From a virus: a stretch of DNA of 64,000 bases. The notes beneath the pieces were generated by a model, which made no database searches, was not told the origin of the DNA, and saw only the letters and a list, made by a program, of their open reading frames with translations. The position numbers and the translations under genes were made by a program. The stretch lies in IMG/VR virus record IMGVR_UViG_3300012984_000012, positions 1-64,000 of that record. One strand, 5' to 3'. Positions 3,758 to 47,736 of this stretch are shown piece after piece (within the stretch, counting starts at the first letter, position 1; every line of letters begins with the position of its first letter).

Positions 3758-6700
3758 TTACACGAATTGGACGCCGCTGTTGGTGATGATGAAGTCCACC
3801 GCAATGAACTCGATCACCTTTGTCGGCACCACGACCACACGACCGTTGAGCTTGTTGAGGTCGATGTCTTCCTGTGTGTTGTTCGTCTCATTGCAGATGA
3901 CTTGAAACGCCTCGATGCCTTGCTGGGCCTGGATCAGACCAAGCTGCAACACGGAGTCTGCGACAAACTTGTTACGCACCGCTGCAGTGTTCTGCTCGAA
4001 CACCATCTGGTTTGCAATGCTGATGATGATGCGCTTGACTTCCAACATCAAACGGCGGACGTTGACCCGATCGAGCGCAGTCTTGGCGACTTGCAGCGTC
4101 TTCTGACCGTAGATGACGAATCCGAGACGTGGGAAGGTCGCGATCGGATTGATCCTAGAGTCGTACAGGGTGTCCCTGTCGCTGACGTTCAAACGAACCT
4201 CAACGTTGGTCACGAAATCCAGACCTGCACGGTTGAAGCCAGCAGGTGCGAACCACGGGTAAGCGACCCTGTCATTGAAAGCCAGCGCGCCCATCGCTGC
4301 GACAGAAGACGGGACCTTCAGGCGACGACGGTTCGTCGCGTCGTCAACGAAGACGTTCGGAAAATACGTACCAGCGTAGTTGTTATCGATCGCTCGACCG
4401 TCGAGCGCCGCAGCCGTCTTGTTGACGTCAGGTCGACCCGACGAGTCATCGTACAAGCGAGCAGCTGAGTCATCGTAAGACGCAATGTCCATGACATAGA
4501 AGGCTAGACCGTAATCACGTACCTTCGCCATGGCGTAGTCGGTTACGAACGATTCACGGATGCCAGGGATCGCCAGGATGTTCGTGTTAACGACCAGTGG
4601 GTCAGTCATGATGTCGATCGCCGTCGTGTACGACAGGACGTTCGAGTTATCCTGTCCTGTGCCGTTCGGATTGACCAACAGGCCCGGAGCAACGTATCCC
4701 ACTGCAGCGCCGCCGCCAGCGTCAAATGATGTCGAACGATCATTGAGACGGCGAGCGTCTCTGTCAAGGATGTTGACGCCGTCGTAGCCACCGTACATCA
4801 TGTTCGTGAACTTGGTGAACGGAGCCCACTTGTTGAAGTTTGCCGCCGTGTCCTGCGCAAGGACAGTAGCGAGAGTGATGCGCTTGCCGATGCTGGTGCT
4901 GACCGTGTATTGCGACAGGTCCAGCTTGGCGTCACGTAGGTACGCTGCCTCACGAATGTGATCCTGGATCGTGCCGGTCAGGTGGGTGATGGCCGTGTTC
5001 GAGAACGCCACCTTCGCTAGCGTGAACTTGTTGTTATTGAAGGTGTCAGCGCCAGAGCCCGTGACAAGGACATCGAGCTTCTTGATGCCCAAGAACTTCG
5101 TGTAGGCCTCGAGTAACCTGTTCTTCTCTGAGGCCAGGTTTGCGTTCAACGGATCGGTGTTACGCTCGAACTTGATACCCCAGTGAAGCTGGGTGTTTGC
5201 GAGCTCGGTCGGACCCGGAGCACCCTCGAAGGCTGAAGCCAACGGGATGTCACCCTTGGTTACCTTGAACCTGAACGGAACGGGAGGAAGAATCGATCCT
5301 GACAGCGCTGAACCAGAGCTGACGCCCAGCACGCCGACGACCCTTGCCGTAGCAGAGCCTGCGTCAGTCAGGGAATCGTTCGTCTTCAGGACTTCCACGC
5401 CGCGGAAACCAAAAGGCAACGACTTGGCAGGAACCAATCCCCTGTCAACAGCGTCAGAAACGTGGACGCGAACCAACTTAGAGACGTTCTCGTACTTTCC
5501 GGTCGCAACGACACGACGCTCGGTCGTGATCGAAGAGTCGAAATTGTAGAAGACGTGGCGATCGCCCACTAGCTTGGCGATGTAGTTGTCAGCGTTCGGA
5601 TCTAGCGAGCAGTTCGGGAATGACTCAAGGACAGATGGGTTCTGGTCCGTGTCGTTCCAGTCCCTGATCTGCAGAGTGAACGTGCCGAAAGGCTTTGACT
5701 CGTCGAGCGAGGCCTTGAGGTTCGTGATCGACACCTTGTAGAGACGGTTAGCGAACTCACCGTCGTCGAGGGCCTCAACGTAGAAGAGATCGTATTCTGT
5801 CGCACCGAACGGCTGCGAGATGAACATCGACGTCTTGGGAGTCTGATACCTCGTGTCGAAGGCACCGTACGCCTGTCGCATGATCAGGCTGCTGTTTCCA
5901 GAGGTGTTGCTCGTTGCCGTTGAGCCTGACAGGACAGCGACGGTGACAGGGAACGCAACCTCATCATCGACAGCAAAGTCACCGTAGAGCAGGTGTTGCT
6001 CTTGCACGAACTTGTCAGGGTCGGTGTTGAGGATCTTTCCGAAGTAATCAGCGTCAGTTGGATTCAGGGACGCTGTCAGGATCTTGACGCCAGGGTTTCC
6101 GTCCGTGTTGACGAACGAGTTACCCAACGTCGAAGAGATGATCAGCTTGAACTTGCCGTTGACAGGCGTCGCGAGGTCATCGGGCCCGGCTGCGGTGAAT
6201 GCACCGACTGAGCTCTCATTGCCGTCTTGCACCATCATGCGAGCGCCGGAGGCTAGCAAGACCATTCCGCGAATCAGGTTAACGAAGCTACCGTTGAAGC
6301 TGTCGTTGTCAGTAAACATGGGAACACCTGAGGCCTCTGCGCTCTGCAAGGTGTGACGTGCCGCAAGAAACTGGACTGCTCCAACGTGGCGACCATGCGA
6401 GTCATCAGCAGCTGTCGAGCCGTTCAGGTAAAAGCCTGCGTTCTTGACTCGGCCCGTCTGTTGGGCGACGGCAATGTCGCCGTCGGTGGAGTTGTTACCG
6501 GCGCCGAGGACACGCAGGTACGTCAGCGAGGAGCGGTGCTTCAGGAACTCGTTGACCGCGTACGGGCCGAAACGCTTCGGGTCTAGGTTTCCGAACGTAG
6601 CTGCAAACTCGTTGAAGTTAGCGACGGTCACCGGAACGAAGGCCGGGCCTTTGTTAGCGGTGCCAATCACGCCAGCAGGGACGCCGACTGGGCCTCGCAA

Positions 6701-6772
6701 TTGGGGCGCGGACAGGTCAATCTCCCGCTCGTAGAAATTTGGTGACCTGAAAGTTTGTTCGGTTCCGGACAT
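3758..6772 (-). CDS. Tail sheath protein (T4 gp18-like), copy 2
   Basis: 1004 residues, a second contractile sheath protein. It shares with copy 1 the N-terminal block PVGVPAGVIGTANKGPAFVP and the C-terminal blocks YPWFAPAGFNRAG, LYDSRINPIATFP, VIYGQKTLQ, ALDRVNVRRLMLEVKR and PTKVIEFIAVDFIIT. The middle regions diverge more, consistent with different surface-exposed domains. A strong ribosome-binding site (AGAGGAG) precedes ATG 6772, and GATACTTA lies 34 nt upstream. Each copy thus has its own control signals. Whether both enter the virion (mixed sheath or alternate sheaths) cannot be told from sequence. Confidence 0.93.
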   Translation of the reverse strand: MSGTEQTFRSPNFYEREIDLSAPQLRGPVGVPAGVIGTANKGPAFVPVTVANFNEFAATFGNLDPKRFGPYAVNEFLKHRSSLTYLRVLGAGNNSTDGDIAVAQQTGRVKNAGFYLNGSTAADDSHGRHVGAVQFLAARHTLQSAEASGVPMFTDNDSFNGSFVNLIRGMVLLASGARMMVQDGNESSVGAFTAAGPDDLATPVNGKFKLIISSTLGNSFVNTDGNPGVKILTASLNPTDADYFGKILNTDPDKFVQEQHLLYGDFAVDDEVAFPVTVAVLSGSTATSNTSGNSSLIMRQAYGAFDTRYQTPKTSMFISQPFGATEYDLFYVEALDDGEFANRLYKVSITNLKASLDESKPFGTFTLQIRDWNDTDQNPSVLESFPNCSLDPNADNYIAKLVGDRHVFYNFDSSITTERRVVATGKYENVSKLVRVHVSDAVDRGLVPAKSLPFGFRGVEVLKTNDSLTDAGSATARVVGVLGVSSGSALSGSILPPVPFRFKVTKGDIPLASAFEGAPGPTELANTQLHWGIKFERNTDPLNANLASEKNRLLEAYTKFLGIKKLDVLVTGSGADTFNNNKFTLAKVAFSNTAITHLTGTIQDHIREAAYLRDAKLDLSQYTVSTSIGKRITLATVLAQDTAANFNKWAPFTKFTNMMYGGYDGVNILDRDARRLNDRSTSFDAGGGAAVGYVAPGLLVNPNGTGQDNSNVLSYTTAIDIMTDPLVVNTNILAIPGIRESFVTDYAMAKVRDYGLAFYVMDIASYDDSAARLYDDSSGRPDVNKTAAALDGRAIDNNYAGTYFPNVFVDDATNRRRLKVPSSVAAMGALAFNDRVAYPWFAPAGFNRAGLDFVTNVEVRLNVSDRDTLYDSRINPIATFPRLGFVIYGQKTLQVAKTALDRVNVRRLMLEVKRIIISIANQMVFEQNTAAVRNKFVADSVLQLGLIQAQQGIEAFQVICNETNNTQEDIDLNKLNGRVVVVPTKVIEFIAVDFIITNSGVQFV

Positions 6773-6806
6773 TACTGTGCTCCTCTACGCTTTGGAATAG
6801 CTACAA

Positions 6807-6814
6807 TAAGTATC
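6807..6814 (-). promoter_or_regulatory. Candidate late promoter octamer GATACTTA
   Basis: Exact GATACTTA on the minus strand, 34 nt before the start of sheath copy 2 and in the short gap after the gp15-like gene. Confidence 0.55.
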
Positions 6815-6818
6815 ATTG

Positions 6819-6841
6819 GCGTGTCTTAAAACCAAACACGC
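6819..6841 (-). other. 6-bp hairpin after the gp15-like gene
   Basis: GCGTGT and ACACGC pair around an 11-base loop directly after the stop of the gp15-like gene and directly before the GATACTTA element. This repeats the hairpin-then-octamer arrangement upstream of sheath copy 1. There is no T-run, so terminator function is uncertain. Confidence 0.3.
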
Positions 6842-6843
6842 GC

Positions 6844-8238
6844 TCAGTCATCAGTGACCACGATCGTCAAGCCTCCCAGGTCAGTACCAGGAGCAAAAAC
6901 GGTCTCACCAGTGAACCGATTGGTGTTGACGACCCTGGCGTACTTCGTCACCTGGTTGCCGTTACGATCGATCCCTGTTATCTTTTTGTACTGCGCTTGG
7001 GGGCGACCCTTGCCCAAGGCCGCTAACGCTGGGTCGTTAGGTGACGTGACCTTCGATCCCGGGTACAATCGAGTTCGACCAGTGTTACGTTGGTCACGTC
7101 TCTTGTTCGGAGCATCGTCAAGGGGCAACGTCGGATCGTCCGATCCCAGGAACGGATCGCCTGCATCTGAACCGATCTCTTCGCCAGCGTTCAATCCGAT
7201 ATCAAACGAAATGACAGGAGACGACACGTAACGCTTGACGGGAACTGGAGCTCCTGGCACGCCAGAGGCGAGGATGTAACCAGGGACCTTGATAGTGAAC
7301 TTGTACTTGATCAGTCGCTCTTCTTGCGACATGTCGTCGAAATTGTTTTCTGCGTTATACACGTTGCCATCGACGGTCGCGATGAACCAGTAACCCTTTG
7401 GGCTATCCAGGCGCCAGGCGTTGCCTTGAGGCAAGAAAGAAGAGATCAACATCTCAACCAATTGAAACATCTGAACCGTGTATTGCGTCCAGAACGTCAC
7501 CTCGTACACTGCTGTGAAAAACTGAGGTGCAGGAAGGACGAGCGTCTCATAGACGTTGTTCTTCTTGTCGTTAAGCAACAAACCCCCCTCTATGACCGTG
7601 GGATCATCAGCGAGGTCACCTATCTTACGAGAGGTGATAAGTTGAGACGATGCAGCTGTGGTGGCGGTGTACGCTACGAAGGGTTGGCCGCTCTCATCAA
7701 CGATCCTATCTCCGTTTTCATTGAGAACGTAATACGTGATGACGTCAAGGCTATCATTCGTCTTCACCGCCAAGTTGGTCTGGTGATTTATCCCGAGCCT
7801 GTTGATGAGTCCCTGGTACGCACGATCAGAATTGTCTAGCCTTCTCTTAACGACTATCTCGCCCGTCTGTTGATTGATACCTCGACCTGTGATGTCCTCG
7901 TCTGGTGTCTGTTGGATCGTCGTTCGGATGACCGTGATCAGGGGAAGTATCAATGCTCCGTTACGATCACGAACGCCACGACTGCGTTTGGCTAACGCCC
8001 ACTTCTCAGCAGCCGAGAAGATGATCGGAACCCGTTTCATCTCTCCACGGTTTTTGTCGCTGGTGCTGACCTGGAACGGGATCTCCTTGTCGAACAGATT
8101 GAACAACGCAGCGTCTACGTCCTCGACGCCACACGCAGGAACCGTCAGGTCAGAGGGCGATGACTTGGTCCCGTAGCCAGTCTGGATTCCGGCTACGTTA
8201 AAGTTAGGCATGCTGTTGCTGTTGAAACGTGTTGACAT
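6844..8238 (-). CDS. Tail sheath stabiliser / tail completion protein (T4 gp15-like)
   Basis: 464 residues. T4 gp15 caps the sheath and joins tail to neck. The sequence has the same order of landmarks as that family: an early MKRVPIIFSAAEKWALAKR block (about residues 67-85), then ALILPLITVIRT. Later comes a beta-rich central block PQFFTAVYEVTFWTQYTVQM followed by LVEMLISSFLPQ, and the closing SQEERLIKYKFTIKVPGYI. It is longer than T4 gp15 (272 residues). It sits between the gp14-like gene and the sheaths, as expected for this role. Its ATG shares a base with the upstream stop codon (TGATG), indicating translational coupling. Confidence 0.78.
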   Translation of the reverse strand: MSTRFNSNSMPNFNVAGIQTGYGTKSSPSDLTVPACGVEDVDAALFNLFDKEIPFQVSTSDKNRGEMKRVPIIFSAAEKWALAKRSRGVRDRNGALILPLITVIRTTIQQTPDEDITGRGINQQTGEIVVKRRLDNSDRAYQGLINRLGINHQTNLAVKTNDSLDVITYYVLNENGDRIVDESGQPFVAYTATTAASSQLITSRKIGDLADDPTVIEGGLLLNDKKNNVYETLVLPAPQFFTAVYEVTFWTQYTVQMFQLVEMLISSFLPQGNAWRLDSPKGYWFIATVDGNVYNAENNFDDMSQEERLIKYKFTIKVPGYILASGVPGAPVPVKRYVSSPVISFDIGLNAGEEIGSDAGDPFLGSDDPTLPLDDAPNKRRDQRNTGRTRLYPGSKVTSPNDPALAALGKGRPQAQYKKITGIDRNGNQVTKYARVVNTNRFTGETVFAPGTDLGGLTIVVTDD

Positions 8239-40755: not shown

Positions 40756-41052
40756 CTAATCAACGTCAAAGACAACGAACATCGGAGGACGTTGAGAAAC
40801 GACGTCTTTGACCTGGTCAGGAGACGGGCGCCAGCCTTCTTGCCACTCTTTTCTCCGAGGGTGTGCCCACTGCAAGGCACAAAGGTGACAGCAGGCAAAC
40901 TCGAGATACGCTGTCTCGTCATCACGTGAACGAAACAGTCTGTCACAGACCTGACACGACAGTGGGATAGGAGCCGAGGCTCCAACAGGAACGATGACAA
41001 AGAAGCCTTCGGGTCGTTCTTCTATCAGACGATCTCTGAGATAGGGTCGCAT
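40756..41052 (-). CDS. Small zinc-binding hypothetical protein
   Basis: 98 residues whose ATG overlaps the gp46-like stop (ATGA). It has a likely four-cysteine zinc site: CQVCDRLF (about residues 33-36) and CCHLCALQW (about 54-58). The segment between is acidic. Small zinc proteins coupled to recombination genes may act on DNA or as regulators. No family is identified. Confidence 0.6.
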   Translation of the reverse strand: MRPYLRDRLIEERPEGFFVIVPVGASAPIPLSCQVCDRLFRSRDDETAYLEFACCHLCALQWAHPRRKEWQEGWRPSPDQVKDVVSQRPPMFVVFDVD

Positions 41053-43631
41053 CAGACGTACGTTACCCTTGCGTCCTTCTCGTTCTTGGTGACATCGATG
41101 ACCAGGTCTGCAGCGTCCTTGACGCCTTCGACGTGAGTGATGACGATGACCATCCTGAAATAACGCTTCAATGACGTCAACAATCGATTACATGCCTCGA
41201 CGCCTGCGTCATCCAGCGCGCCAAAGCCCTCGTCGATGATGAACATGTCGGTCTTTGGAAGCGATGACACGTTGATCAACGCCACACGAATGGCGACTGA
41301 AGCAACCATCTTTTCCATGCCAGACCCGAGTTCGATGATGCGTCGCGAGTCACCATAGTTGATGTAGATCTCTGTCGAGTCGCTGTCATCGTCCGTCTCA
41401 AGCTCGACAGTGAAGTCAACGATTCCCTGCAAGATCTTTGCGATCTCTGCGTTGATGATCGGCAATTGAGATCTCGTGATGACGCTCGGAATGCCACGAC
41501 GAGAAAACGCCGAGGTAACCAACTCATACGCCCTCATCTTCTTAAGGATCTCTTCACGTTGGTGACGCTCGCCAGCATGCTTGTCAATGATCGTTTGTAC
41601 CCTGCCTCGCTCAGTTGCTAGCAGCAGCTTCTCGGTATCGAGACGCTTAGAGGCCGCTTGAAGGGCATCGATTTCTGTCCTAAGGGAAACCACCTCAGCG
41701 TTTTCCTCATTTTTGAGGGCCTCCTCAAGTTCCTGGAGCTTGCTCTGGACGGGCTTTAGGGCGACGCTAGTGTTCTCAAAGTCAGTCTCTAACCGAACGA
41801 GCTTGACGTGCTTTGTCGAGATCTCTACCTTCAGCTTCGAGTGCATTTCGTGAAGCTGCTCTACCTTGTTTACTCGATCGCTTAGGTTCTCCTGTTTCAG
41901 GACCTGGAGTGCCTCTTCTGCACGTTGGAGCTTCTCGAGCGCCTTTGTTGACCTTTCACGCTGGGGATCAACCTTGTCCTTCACCAGGTGAGCGTCCTTG
42001 ATAAACTTGCAGCTTGGAAACTTGTCACCACACGGCACGTCATCAAGGATCTTCAGCGATCGTTCCTGCTGTTTCAGAAGCGAAGCCTCCTTTTCGTGTG
42101 AGTGTTTCAAAGCAATGACTGAGGCCTCTAGCGTTCGATACGCCTCGAGCCTACGTTTCAGATCAACCAGGTTATGCTCTTTCTGAAATTCATCGATCTT
42201 TTCGACTCGAGCGTTCAGTTTTTCAGACTCATCCTTGTTTCGCTCGATCTGTTGTGATAAGCTGTCGAGCTGCTCTGACATCGTCGTGACACGAACGCGC
42301 ATCGCTTCGACCTGAGACTTCGTCACTGGAGTGAAGTCCTTGTGTGAAGCAAGGGTACGTCGAAGTTGTTCGAGCTGGTCGTTCAGCTCGCCGAGTTTGG
42401 TCTGCTTGATCTCGATCTGTTCGTCACAATTCTCGATCTGCTGGTAACACTGTGTGTCTAGCGCCATCCAGTCCCTGTCAGGTAGGGACTTCAGCACGGC
42501 TTTTGTCGCATTCAGGTCGTTCTTTCCGAGATCGTACATCTTGTCAAAGATGTCAAGATCGAGGAACCGAGCGAGGATCTGGCGGCGGCGGGTCGAACCT
42601 TGCGATATGAATAGCTTGATCTCGTCCTGAGCTGACAACGACGTGAGCAAGAAATCATCAGGAGTGCCGATCAGCTTTCGGATCACTTTCTCAGTATCGT
42701 TACGCTGTTCACCAGCTAGGTCAATGGCCTCTCCGTCCTCCATGCGGAAAACGTTAAGAGCCGTCGACGCATTAATTTTCCCACGCTTGTCCTCGCTCTT
42801 GGTGGTCTGTCGCTCGATAACGTAGTCCGTTCCGTCAACGTTGATGACGCCTCGAGCGTAACAATACGACTTACGAGCGTTGACAACGTGAAGGTTTTTT
42901 ATCGAACCACGGTCAGTGCTGTTGTGAAGCATGTACATGATCGTGCCGACGATCGATGACTTGCCCGACCTGTTAGGTCCAAAGATCCCTACGATGCCAT
43001 TTAAGTTCTCAAAATTGATGACGTTACCTTCGCCGTAAGCGAGGGTGTTGTCAAACTTCAAGTGCCTCAACGACCACTTAGTGTTCCGAACAATCTCATC
43101 AGCACCAAAGAAGGCAAGGTAACTCTTCACCAGATCATGAACGCTGTTCCATGTCTCTTCTGTGACGTTTGCTTGGTGATGATACTCTTTCAGTAACCTA
43201 ACCAACACGTCTGGGTTCCTGAGATCATCTTTTACGACCTGTGTCGTTCCAGAAGAGATGATAATGTCACGTTTGACGTGGTGATCTGTCTTGAACGTGA
43301 CCTCAGTCGCGTTCAACGCTTCCTTGAGGCTGTGACCGATCTCGACCACGTCCCTTTGCGAGAGCTGGTCGTGGCTGTAGATCCTGAAACGACTGGATGG
43401 TGAGAAGTTCTTCTTAGCAAACTCAACGGTGCTGATGACGTCGCCTTGCCAGTCGACGGTCACGAACGGGCGGGGGTTTGGCAACTCAATGAACTTGACA
43501 TCGAAGTCATCGCGCGCCCCTAGATCCCATTGCAAGAAACCGTGAACGGTGTCCTCAGCATAATTCTGTTGGACAGTAGATCCAGGATAGCCGATCCATC
43601 CCTTTTTCCACTTGATGCGAAGCTTCGTCAC
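41052..43631 (-). CDS. Rad50/SbcC-like recombination ATPase (T4 gp46-like) with gp47 C-terminal domain at its N-terminus
   Basis: 859 residues from GTG 43631. Residues 1-180 are not ATPase: WIGYPGSTVQQNYAED and HGFLQWDL (about residues 12-37) are the Mre11/SbcD capping-domain signature that normally ends gp47. The gp46 part begins near residue 183, with Walker A GPNRSGKSS (219-227), a long coiled coil, and a zinc-hook-like CGDKFPSC. The signature region is ELGSGMEKMVASVAIRVALI, and Walker B is FIIDEGFGALDDAG. Gp46 with gp47 forms the exonuclease that resects ends for recombination-dependent replication. The start lies one base past the gp47-like stop (TAA-C-GTG). Confidence 0.88.
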   Translation of the reverse strand: MTKLRIKWKKGWIGYPGSTVQQNYAEDTVHGFLQWDLGARDDFDVKFIELPNPRPFVTVDWQGDVISTVEFAKKNFSPSSRFRIYSHDQLSQRDVVEIGHSLKEALNATEVTFKTDHHVKRDIIISSGTTQVVKDDLRNPDVLVRLLKEYHHQANVTEETWNSVHDLVKSYLAFFGADEIVRNTKWSLRHLKFDNTLAYGEGNVINFENLNGIVGIFGPNRSGKSSIVGTIMYMLHNSTDRGSIKNLHVVNARKSYCYARGVINVDGTDYVIERQTTKSEDKRGKINASTALNVFRMEDGEAIDLAGEQRNDTEKVIRKLIGTPDDFLLTSLSAQDEIKLFISQGSTRRRQILARFLDLDIFDKMYDLGKNDLNATKAVLKSLPDRDWMALDTQCYQQIENCDEQIEIKQTKLGELNDQLEQLRRTLASHKDFTPVTKSQVEAMRVRVTTMSEQLDSLSQQIERNKDESEKLNARVEKIDEFQKEHNLVDLKRRLEAYRTLEASVIALKHSHEKEASLLKQQERSLKILDDVPCGDKFPSCKFIKDAHLVKDKVDPQRERSTKALEKLQRAEEALQVLKQENLSDRVNKVEQLHEMHSKLKVEISTKHVKLVRLETDFENTSVALKPVQSKLQELEEALKNEENAEVVSLRTEIDALQAASKRLDTEKLLLATERGRVQTIIDKHAGERHQREEILKKMRAYELVTSAFSRRGIPSVITRSQLPIINAEIAKILQGIVDFTVELETDDDSDSTEIYINYGDSRRIIELGSGMEKMVASVAIRVALINVSSLPKTDMFIIDEGFGALDDAGVEACNRLLTSLKRYFRMVIVITHVEGVKDAADLVIDVTKNEKDARVTYV

Positions 43632-43632
43632 G

Positions 43633-44289
43633 TTATCCGATCTCCTCTATCACCTCTGCGCCTGGGTACTTACCGATGTCGTCTTTATCGATCACGATCT
43701 CAACGTCACGGTAACCCAAGAACTGCATCCGATGAATGTCACCCAAGAAGACGAAATCATACTCCTTGAAGAAGTCAACCGTTAAGCCGTCCTCGATCAA
43801 CCAGTCGCTCTCTGTCTTGGCTCCCCACACCGGCCCATGATAGCAAGCGATGTTGATCTTTCCCGGAAGAGGCTTTACGCTCTTCCAACCAACCTCGTCA
43901 AAGAGGCTGAAAATGCACCAGGTGTAACCAGGCGCGAATTCATAGACACCGCTGTTCTTGTAGAGATGGATCTTCGGACTACGTAAGGCATTAACGATGG
44001 GCGTGATGGCGTCTTGCCTGGAGAGATTGACTAGGTTTCCATCGTGGTTTCCCAACGTCAGATGGAGCTCAGCGCATGATGACAACGTCTCAAGCCACCA
44101 AGACAGGACCTCGATGTACTCTGGGCTTAGTCCTGATGTCTTCGTGTGAAAAATGTCGCCACCGACGAACACGTGTTGAACGTTGTTTGCTTTGACCTGT
44201 TCTGCGAACGCTTCAAAGACTAACCGATACTCTTCGTGTCTTGAGAGGCCTCTCCAGTGTACGTCAGCAATGTGAGCGATCCTGAGCAT
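43633..44289 (-). CDS. Mre11/SbcD-like nuclease core (T4 gp47-like), lacking the capping domain
   Basis: 218 residues. All metallophosphoesterase motifs are present: IADVHW (Asp9, His11), GGDIFH (Asp45), LGNHDG (Asn81, His82), ACYHGPV (His151) and LGDIHRMQF (His186). The frame stops soon after the last motif, while gp47/SbcD proteins are about 340-400 residues. The missing C-terminal part is read at the start of the next gene; the two pieces add up to about 396 residues. The enzyme should keep its active site, but partner contact must be made in trans. The start codon lies within an inverted repeat. Confidence 0.88.
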   Translation of the reverse strand: MLRIAHIADVHWRGLSRHEEYRLVFEAFAEQVKANNVQHVFVGGDIFHTKTSGLSPEYIEVLSWWLETLSSCAELHLTLGNHDGNLVNLSRQDAITPIVNALRSPKIHLYKNSGVYEFAPGYTWCIFSLFDEVGWKSVKPLPGKINIACYHGPVWGAKTESDWLIEDGLTVDFFKEYDFVFLGDIHRMQFLGYRDVEIVIDKDDIGKYPGAEVIEEIG

Positions 44290-47048: not shown

Positions 47049-47447
47049 CTATTTCAGCAGACCAAGTAGCTTCAATTCGACCTCTGTGATCACTTCTAGG
47101 GCCACGCCGTGGGTCGAGCACCATTCCTGGGCGGCCTTGAGCTTCTTGACAACCTTCACCTGGCTCGCGCGCCTCTTGGGTTTGATCTCGACGAGAACCT
47201 TTCTGTCCGAGTATTCAACGAGGAAGTCTGGGAAGTAGTTACGTAGCTTCCCGGTCCGGAGGTTGCTGACGTACGGGATCTTGGTCTTTTCGTAAGAGTA
47301 CGTGACGACATCTACGTTCGCGTCCAACCATTGCATGTACGAGAGCTCCCACCCTGACCTGTACTTGCACTCACCCGCTTTTGGAGAGAGGTGCAGGCCC
47401 GTGTGATAGTGACGCTTACGCTTGCGACGTGTCTTACGTTTAGCCAA
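47049..47447 (-). CDS. Head completion nuclease (T4 gp4-like)
   Basis: 132 residues if started at TTG 47447 with GAAGG-type leader; an in-frame TTG at 47465 is the alternative. No ATG is available. The protein has a very basic start (AKRKTRRKRKRHYHTG), then YRSGWELSYMQWLDANVDVV, IPYVSNLRTGKLRNYFPDFL and KVLVEIKPKRRASQ. These match the YRS-WE...PY...YFPDF...VE-KPK order of T4 gp4-type head completion proteins, a restriction-like nuclease fold. It overlaps the preceding gene by 8 nt. The same nuclease core is seen in two homing endonucleases here. Confidence 0.75.
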   Translation of the reverse strand: MAKRKTRRKRKRHYHTGLHLSPKAGECKYRSGWELSYMQWLDANVDVVTYSYEKTKIPYVSNLRTGKLRNYFPDFLVEYSDRKVLVEIKPKRRASQVKVVKKLKAAQEWCSTHGVALEVITEVELKLLGLLK

Positions 47448-47736
47448 GCAGCTCGCCTTCAGCAAACATCCCAGCCGTCGACGGACCGTCAGAGAACCTC
47501 TTCGGGTTGCTGATCAGCTGGAAGCTGACGCCTTTTCCGAAGTCCTGTTCCGATGGCGCAGCGACCCACCTTAGGTCACCGTCAAAGACAAGGGCGCTGA
47601 CCTGCTTGTCAGCGACAAAACAAAGCGACCACATGCGTCTGTTCTCAGCACGTCCCAACAAGATGCCAGGGCACACCAAACGATTGGGGGGAAAGTTGAA
47701 GTAAGGTTGGTCAACAAAACGAACGCGAGCTCTCAT
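47440..47736 (-). CDS. Hypothetical protein
   Basis: 98 residues, MRARVRFVDQPYFNFPPNRL, with GAGGA upstream. The sequence is beta-rich (RMWSLCFVADKQVSALVFDG), with a flexible C-terminus. It lies between a large structural gene and the gp4-like gene, which starts inside its end. No family is recognised. Confidence 0.6.
   Translation of the reverse strand: MRARVRFVDQPYFNFPPNRLVCPGILLGRAENRRMWSLCFVADKQVSALVFDGDLRWVAAPSEQDFGKGVSFQLISNPKRFSDGPSTAGMFAEGELLG

Follow-up and report, generated by a model that had tools for sequence, protein, structure and literature searches.

A phage Mre11-Rad50 gene divided inside Mre11, with complementary tails at the break and a probable origin in endonuclease-driven fission

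How does a phage come to carry the nuclease half of Mre11 in one open reading frame and the other half at the head of Rad50? The question is raised by a stretch of viral DNA of 64,000 nucleotides (the window; positions 1 to 64,000 of IMG/VR record IMGVR_UViG_3300012984_000012), where a frame resembling phage gp47 stops early and a second frame opens almost at once. An earlier note, made from the sequence alone, had offered gene fission plus fusion, a programmed frameshift giving a gp47-gp46 fusion, or a sequencing error at 43632. The first of these stood up in our analysis, with fusion preceding fission, and the other two did not. We consider it probable, and the best explanation, that the two frames (ORF A and ORF B) are two genes, each translated on its own, that together once made up a single-chain Mre11-Rad50 gene.

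The break inside Mre11

The features of the junction are as follows.

43633 to 44289, minus strand: ORF A, Mre11/SbcD phosphoesterase half, 218 aa (Pfam Metallophos, E 1.4e-11; PHROG SbcD-like, E 5.6e-16)
43636 to 43713, minus strand: acidic tail of ORF A, YRDVEIVIDKDDIGKYPGAEVIEEIG, net charge -5 (strand-helix-strand by AlphaFold2, pLDDT about 91-95)
43642 to 43647, minus strand: Shine-Dalgarno-like GAGGAG inside ORF A, at a spacing of 10 nt from the GTG of ORF B
41052 to 43631, minus strand: ORF B, Mre11 capping and C-terminal region fused to Rad50, 859 aa
43593 to 43631, minus strand: basic head of ORF B, MTKLRIKWKKGWI, predicted strand partner of the A tail
43080 to 43592, minus strand: Mre11 capping domain (YPGSTVQQNYAE...GFLQWDL) and C-terminal helical region, in ORF B (SbcD profile match, Foldseek)
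42954 to 42980, minus strand: Rad50 Walker A, GPNRSGKSS, residues 218-226 of ORF B, read from the translation

The layout described earlier was confirmed: ORF A ends in TAA (43635-43633, minus strand), and a single nucleotide separates this stop from the GTG (43631-43629) that starts ORF B. In ORF A the Metallophos/SbcD match reaches the last nuclease motif, GDIH (residues 183-186), and the phosphoesterase motifs D9, H11, D45, N81, H151 and GDIH are conserved. GH is usual at the last phosphoesterase motif of Mre11/SbcD; here Asp replaces it, and GDIH is invariant across the aligned relatives, fused and split alike. ORF B opens with ~184 residues that make up the SbcD capping and C-terminal region. 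When a profile spanning the junction was aligned to E. coli SbcD (7yzo), its positions 170-362 matched residues 208-399, and a Foldseek search with modelled A plus residues 1-200 of B returned SbcD/Mre11 structures that have both nuclease and capping domains. These matches bear out the claim that ORF A ends just past its last phosphoesterase motif while the capping region heads ORF B. Rad50 begins at about residue 185 of ORF B (PHROG SbcC-like, E 1.4e-53 across residues 185-856). The capping/Rad50-binding region of Mre11 is therefore present in the window but carried by ORF B, and the nuclease and the Mre11 C-terminus do not form one polypeptide, since a stop separates nuclease from capping domain. 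It had also been said that the combined length equals a normal gp47. ORF A and the Mre11 part of ORF B come to ~400 aa, which is indeed near E. coli SbcD but exceeds T4-type gp47 (344 aa in Synechococcus phage S-SSM5); the excess consists in part of the tails at the break.

Two further observations concern the neighbourhood. The Rad50 zinc hook of ORF B (about 42008-42040, minus strand) reads PCGDKFPSCKF (C-x6-C) in place of CxxC; it is near-identical in several relatives (e.g. loci L025 and L022), and locus L083 has CEYC. A 138-aa ORF of the window (47049-47465, minus strand) with a PDFLVEY...VEIK pattern resembles TnsA-like nucleases and adjoins a RuvC-like gene and a primase-like gene; RuvC-like and primase-like genes also stand beside ORF A in L088 and L083.

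Fused and split relatives, and the endonucleases between the halves

A search of viral contigs gave 80 close relatives, a set later enlarged by a second query and alignment, and only three were found in the cellular genome collection. Searches for close kin of the A proteins of L083 and L088 found none for the former and only its own contig for the latter. The relatives have two architectures: the majority encode a single-chain Mre11-Rad50, and the remainder are split exactly at the window's site. The comparison with homologous phages that the earlier note had proposed thus shows the same-site split in ~33 other environmental contigs, from different samples, and the fused form in more than 100 relatives, where a chain of ~1050 aa runs uninterrupted through a short loop at the split point. 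A single ORF with both activities, of the R555 type, is absent from the window and present in all of these. One of them is WWT39521.1 of Microcystis phage Mel-JY01 (L081, 3359-6559); Tenacibaculum phage pT24 gp019 (L265, 3980-7912) and Sphingomonas phage PAU gp288 (L267, 5001-8906) are apparent Mre11-Rad50 fusions, judged by protein length and an N-terminal phosphoesterase match. The three are annotated as AAA protein or metallo-phosphoesterase, not as Mre11-Rad50 fusions. Among split relatives the frame offset from A to B may be 0, 1 or 2, with gaps of -16 (an overlap) to +1016 nt; in L001 and L002 the B frame runs on directly after the A stop. L016 has an unrelated ORF of ~104 aa (6651-6965) between A and B, with no convincing family match.

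Several relatives carry an endonuclease gene in the break. L025 and L026 have in their gap an ORF of 300 aa whose product combines zinc-finger-like cysteines with a Vsr-like domain (TIGR vsr, E 2e-7) and hits homing endonucleases in PHROG (E 4e-17), and a 201-kb contig, L088, has a 324-aa homologue (39% identity) in the same break. In L083 (LR756508) the break is occupied by a different endonuclease, with an HNH-PHROG zinc region and a TnsA-like domain. In L023 and L024 both ends of the L025 endonuclease survive around a deletion of ~757 nt, L022 has a smaller remnant, most of the gene being gone, and in L027, L034 and L038 only the flanks are left. Neither an endonuclease gene nor a remnant lies between the halves in the window or elsewhere in the all-split clade of 18 to which it belongs; because homologous tails stand there at the same site, we infer an endonuclease origin for this clade as well.

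To place these forms we built a tree from 82 nuclease-capping-Rad50 cores, excluding the tails. Split forms are scattered among fused ones (L025 is sister to the fused L040), and the state changes 10 times (at least 9-10), strongly supported branches forcing most of the changes, although some re-fusion (L211/L215) is inseparable from loss as the tree is unrooted and carries SH-aLRT support only. The window's clade has an SH-aLRT of 97. A single clade of all split forms was rejected (p-AU 3e-76). The alleles are also mosaic. L025, L023 and L022 share a block at the junction with about 92-100% DNA identity from -40 to +20 codons (sliding identity), which drops to 78-90% over the next 20 codons and is mostly 43-83% outside the block. 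Outside it, L022 is mostly 80-94% identical to the fused L030, and L025 is 62-84% identical to the fused L040 and L041. A shared block in divergent genes with different fused nearest kin is the signature of homing with co-conversion of flanks.

The split was thus probably produced when an endonuclease drove the fission of a fused Mre11-Rad50 gene, with horizontal spread and reassembly of the halves in trans. The account in the earlier note, sound in its choice of fission plus fusion, took in neither the homing endonuclease nor the complementary tails, nor the fact that single-chain parents are widespread. The alternative that survives best, while still unlikely, is a single ordinary gene fission with endonucleases invading later and with the fused forms being re-fusions. 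Already split genes may be invaded by endonucleases, as discussed for gene 43 (PMC2988022), and two single-chain relatives, L211 and L215, do look like re-fusions. However, the tree rejects a single split clade, most alleles are fused, tail traces among these being confined to L211 and L215, and L022 matches the fused L030 closely everywhere save at the block. The single chains of L211 and L215 have a scar-like insert (EYSCEELVVNESKLTTKKIKHIKPAIKYSGS) resembling tail and head joined, and possibly these two are re-fusions.

Complementary tails at the break

Compared with fused proteins, the split forms have two extra pieces. A ends in a C-terminal tail of ~26 residues, whose consensus is close to EIEIDExDLxKYPGAEVIE (YLxxGWE in deep lineages), and B opens with an N-terminal head of ~13 residues (consensus MSKKIKIKxKK). 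The tail has a mean net charge of -5.6 and the head one of +4.8, against +0.5 for the loops or linkers of fused proteins. In this form the pair is restricted to split alleles. Both pieces are conserved after endonuclease loss, and in the endonuclease-free clade the tail has a pN/pS of 0.21, indicating purifying selection, with synonymous sites near saturation. A tail HMM was run against all ORFs of the fetched loci, 77 of which have a related endonuclease at another site, and picked up the tail in no other gene. PHROG matches to the bare tail (best E 0.0095) were too weak and were set aside.

When the window's two halves were modelled by AlphaFold2 as one chain read through the junction, strands at residues 189-201 and 222-234 appeared around a short helix and strand (pLDDT about 91-95). 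In a control with L025, A and B were separated by ~300 residues of out-of-frame noise (pLDDT about 25), and the 13-residue strands 190-202 and 529-541 persisted with high confidence. As the DSSP strands in the one-chain model are of matched length and have no other partners, the A tail and B head are predicted to pair as a long beta hairpin, and they may do so in the cell; the tails probably let the two halves rejoin. With the modelled pairing and the purifying selection, the split halves may retain Mre11-Rad50 activity.

Could the break instead be mended after transcription or translation? Splicing of protein or RNA, by a split intein or an intron as in fractured genes with Vsr-type endonucleases, would fit the L025 endonuclease, whose Vsr-like family was reportedly named from fractured genes with split inteins (as cited in PMC12350094). 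However, Rfam found no introns in the gaps or the window and Pfam no intein families on A or B, the tails are only ~26 and ~13 residues long and lack splice-junction residues, and they remain conserved once the endonuclease is lost, which makes splicing very improbable. Equally improbable is a programmed frameshift or stop read-through yielding a fused protein in the window's phage. The gap is short, and L001 and L002 have a B frame that directly continues past the A stop, but across relatives the offset takes all three values, gaps extend to 1016 nt with an unrelated ORF in between, and ORF B has its own start codon, preceded in the window by GAGGAG 10 nt upstream. Inspection of the junction by eye showed no conserved slippery site. 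The variable offset, the gaps and ORF B's own start and ribosome-binding site exclude a frameshifted gp47-gp46 fusion as a general mechanism. A one-base sequencing or assembly error at 43632 disrupting a normal gene, which would suit the single-base gap and the frames differing by one, has a negligible chance and is excluded, as the same break with the same extra tails recurs in ~33 independent contigs, in other frames and with other gap lengths, and joining the frames would still leave an insertion of ~35 aa that fused genes do not have. On the relatives, the offsets and the Rfam/Pfam searches, sequencing error, programmed frameshift, read-through, intron and intein were all rejected.

Under endonuclease-driven fission, Mre11 and Rad50 would have fused first and been divided later. 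A homing endonuclease gene would have split it by entering the loop that joins the last nuclease motif to the capping domain, and the split allele with its tail-coding flanks would have reached other phages through break repair and co-conversion. The endonuclease gene would then have been lost from the window's lineage, leaving the 1-nt gap and an ORF B initiated from its own GTG. Paired as a hairpin, the acidic tail and basic head would dock the nuclease on the capping-Rad50 chain, and a working Mre11-Rad50 complex would be rebuilt from pieces cut at an unusual place. A bolder proposal, on which we are about evenly divided, is that the split allele itself is the mobile unit (acidic-tail coding, endonuclease and basic-head coding), entering fused Mre11-Rad50 genes of distant phages. 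By docking the halves, its matched tails would make the insertion harmless; the pair would be a portable connector for split proteins, naturally evolved and outlasting the endonuclease. The target of this unit would be the break-processing enzyme that its own homing may need, by analogy with T4.

Relation to known systems

The two ingredients of this locus, Mre11-Rad50 fusions and endonuclease-split genes, were already known separately. The nrdA-a / mobE / nrdA-b arrangement of Aeromonas phage Aeh1 is reportedly the subject of Friedrich 2007. In these "genes in pieces", nrdA is split by mobE and still functional (PMC2988022). As here, an essential phage gene is split by a homing endonuclease gene that stands free, with neither intron nor intein involved, and the halves cooperate, with extra peptide ends acting as interaction domains according to the title of Crona 2011 as cited in PMC3267527; in our case that role is predicted. 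Unlike Aeh1, a different gene is split and many alleles share one site, with the endonuclease intact, decayed or lost (absent in the window, present in L025/L026, L088 and L083); mosaic evidence points to movement of the split allele itself; and since the parent gene joined two enzymes, the new boundary leaves half of Mre11 on Rad50. Fusions of Mre11 and Rad50 have been known since 2011 from Mimivirus R555 and Bacillus phage 0305phi8-36 (PMC3175470). The domain order is the same, and unsplit relatives such as the Mel-JY01 protein are of the same kind, whereas the window's chain is cut inside Mre11 and not at the Mre11/Rad50 boundary. Fractured genes with split inteins and EDxHD/Vsr endonucleases (Dassa 2009, as cited in PMC12350094) likewise place a Vsr-like endonuclease between two phage gene halves, as in L025 and L088, but here there is no intein and short, predicted pairing tails replace splicing. 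T4-type gp47/gp46, as in S-SSM5, also draw the same two activities from two genes, but there the boundary falls between complete Mre11 and Rad50. Our literature search found no paper linking homing endonucleases to Mre11/Rad50 genes. What is new against the literature searched is the combination of fusion and split, the mosaic signs of a mobile split, the retained charge-complementary tails and a boundary inside Mre11.

To conclude, gene fission in the Mre11-Rad50 machine can be seen here at several stages at one site, with an intact endonuclease, deleted remnants and a clean split, alongside mosaic alleles and close relatives that are not split. For annotation, B proteins may be called plain Rad50/SbcC and half of Mre11 be overlooked. 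A naturally split Mre11 asks whether the covalent link between nuclease and capping domain is required, and the system tests how selfish insertions turn harmless via docking peptides.
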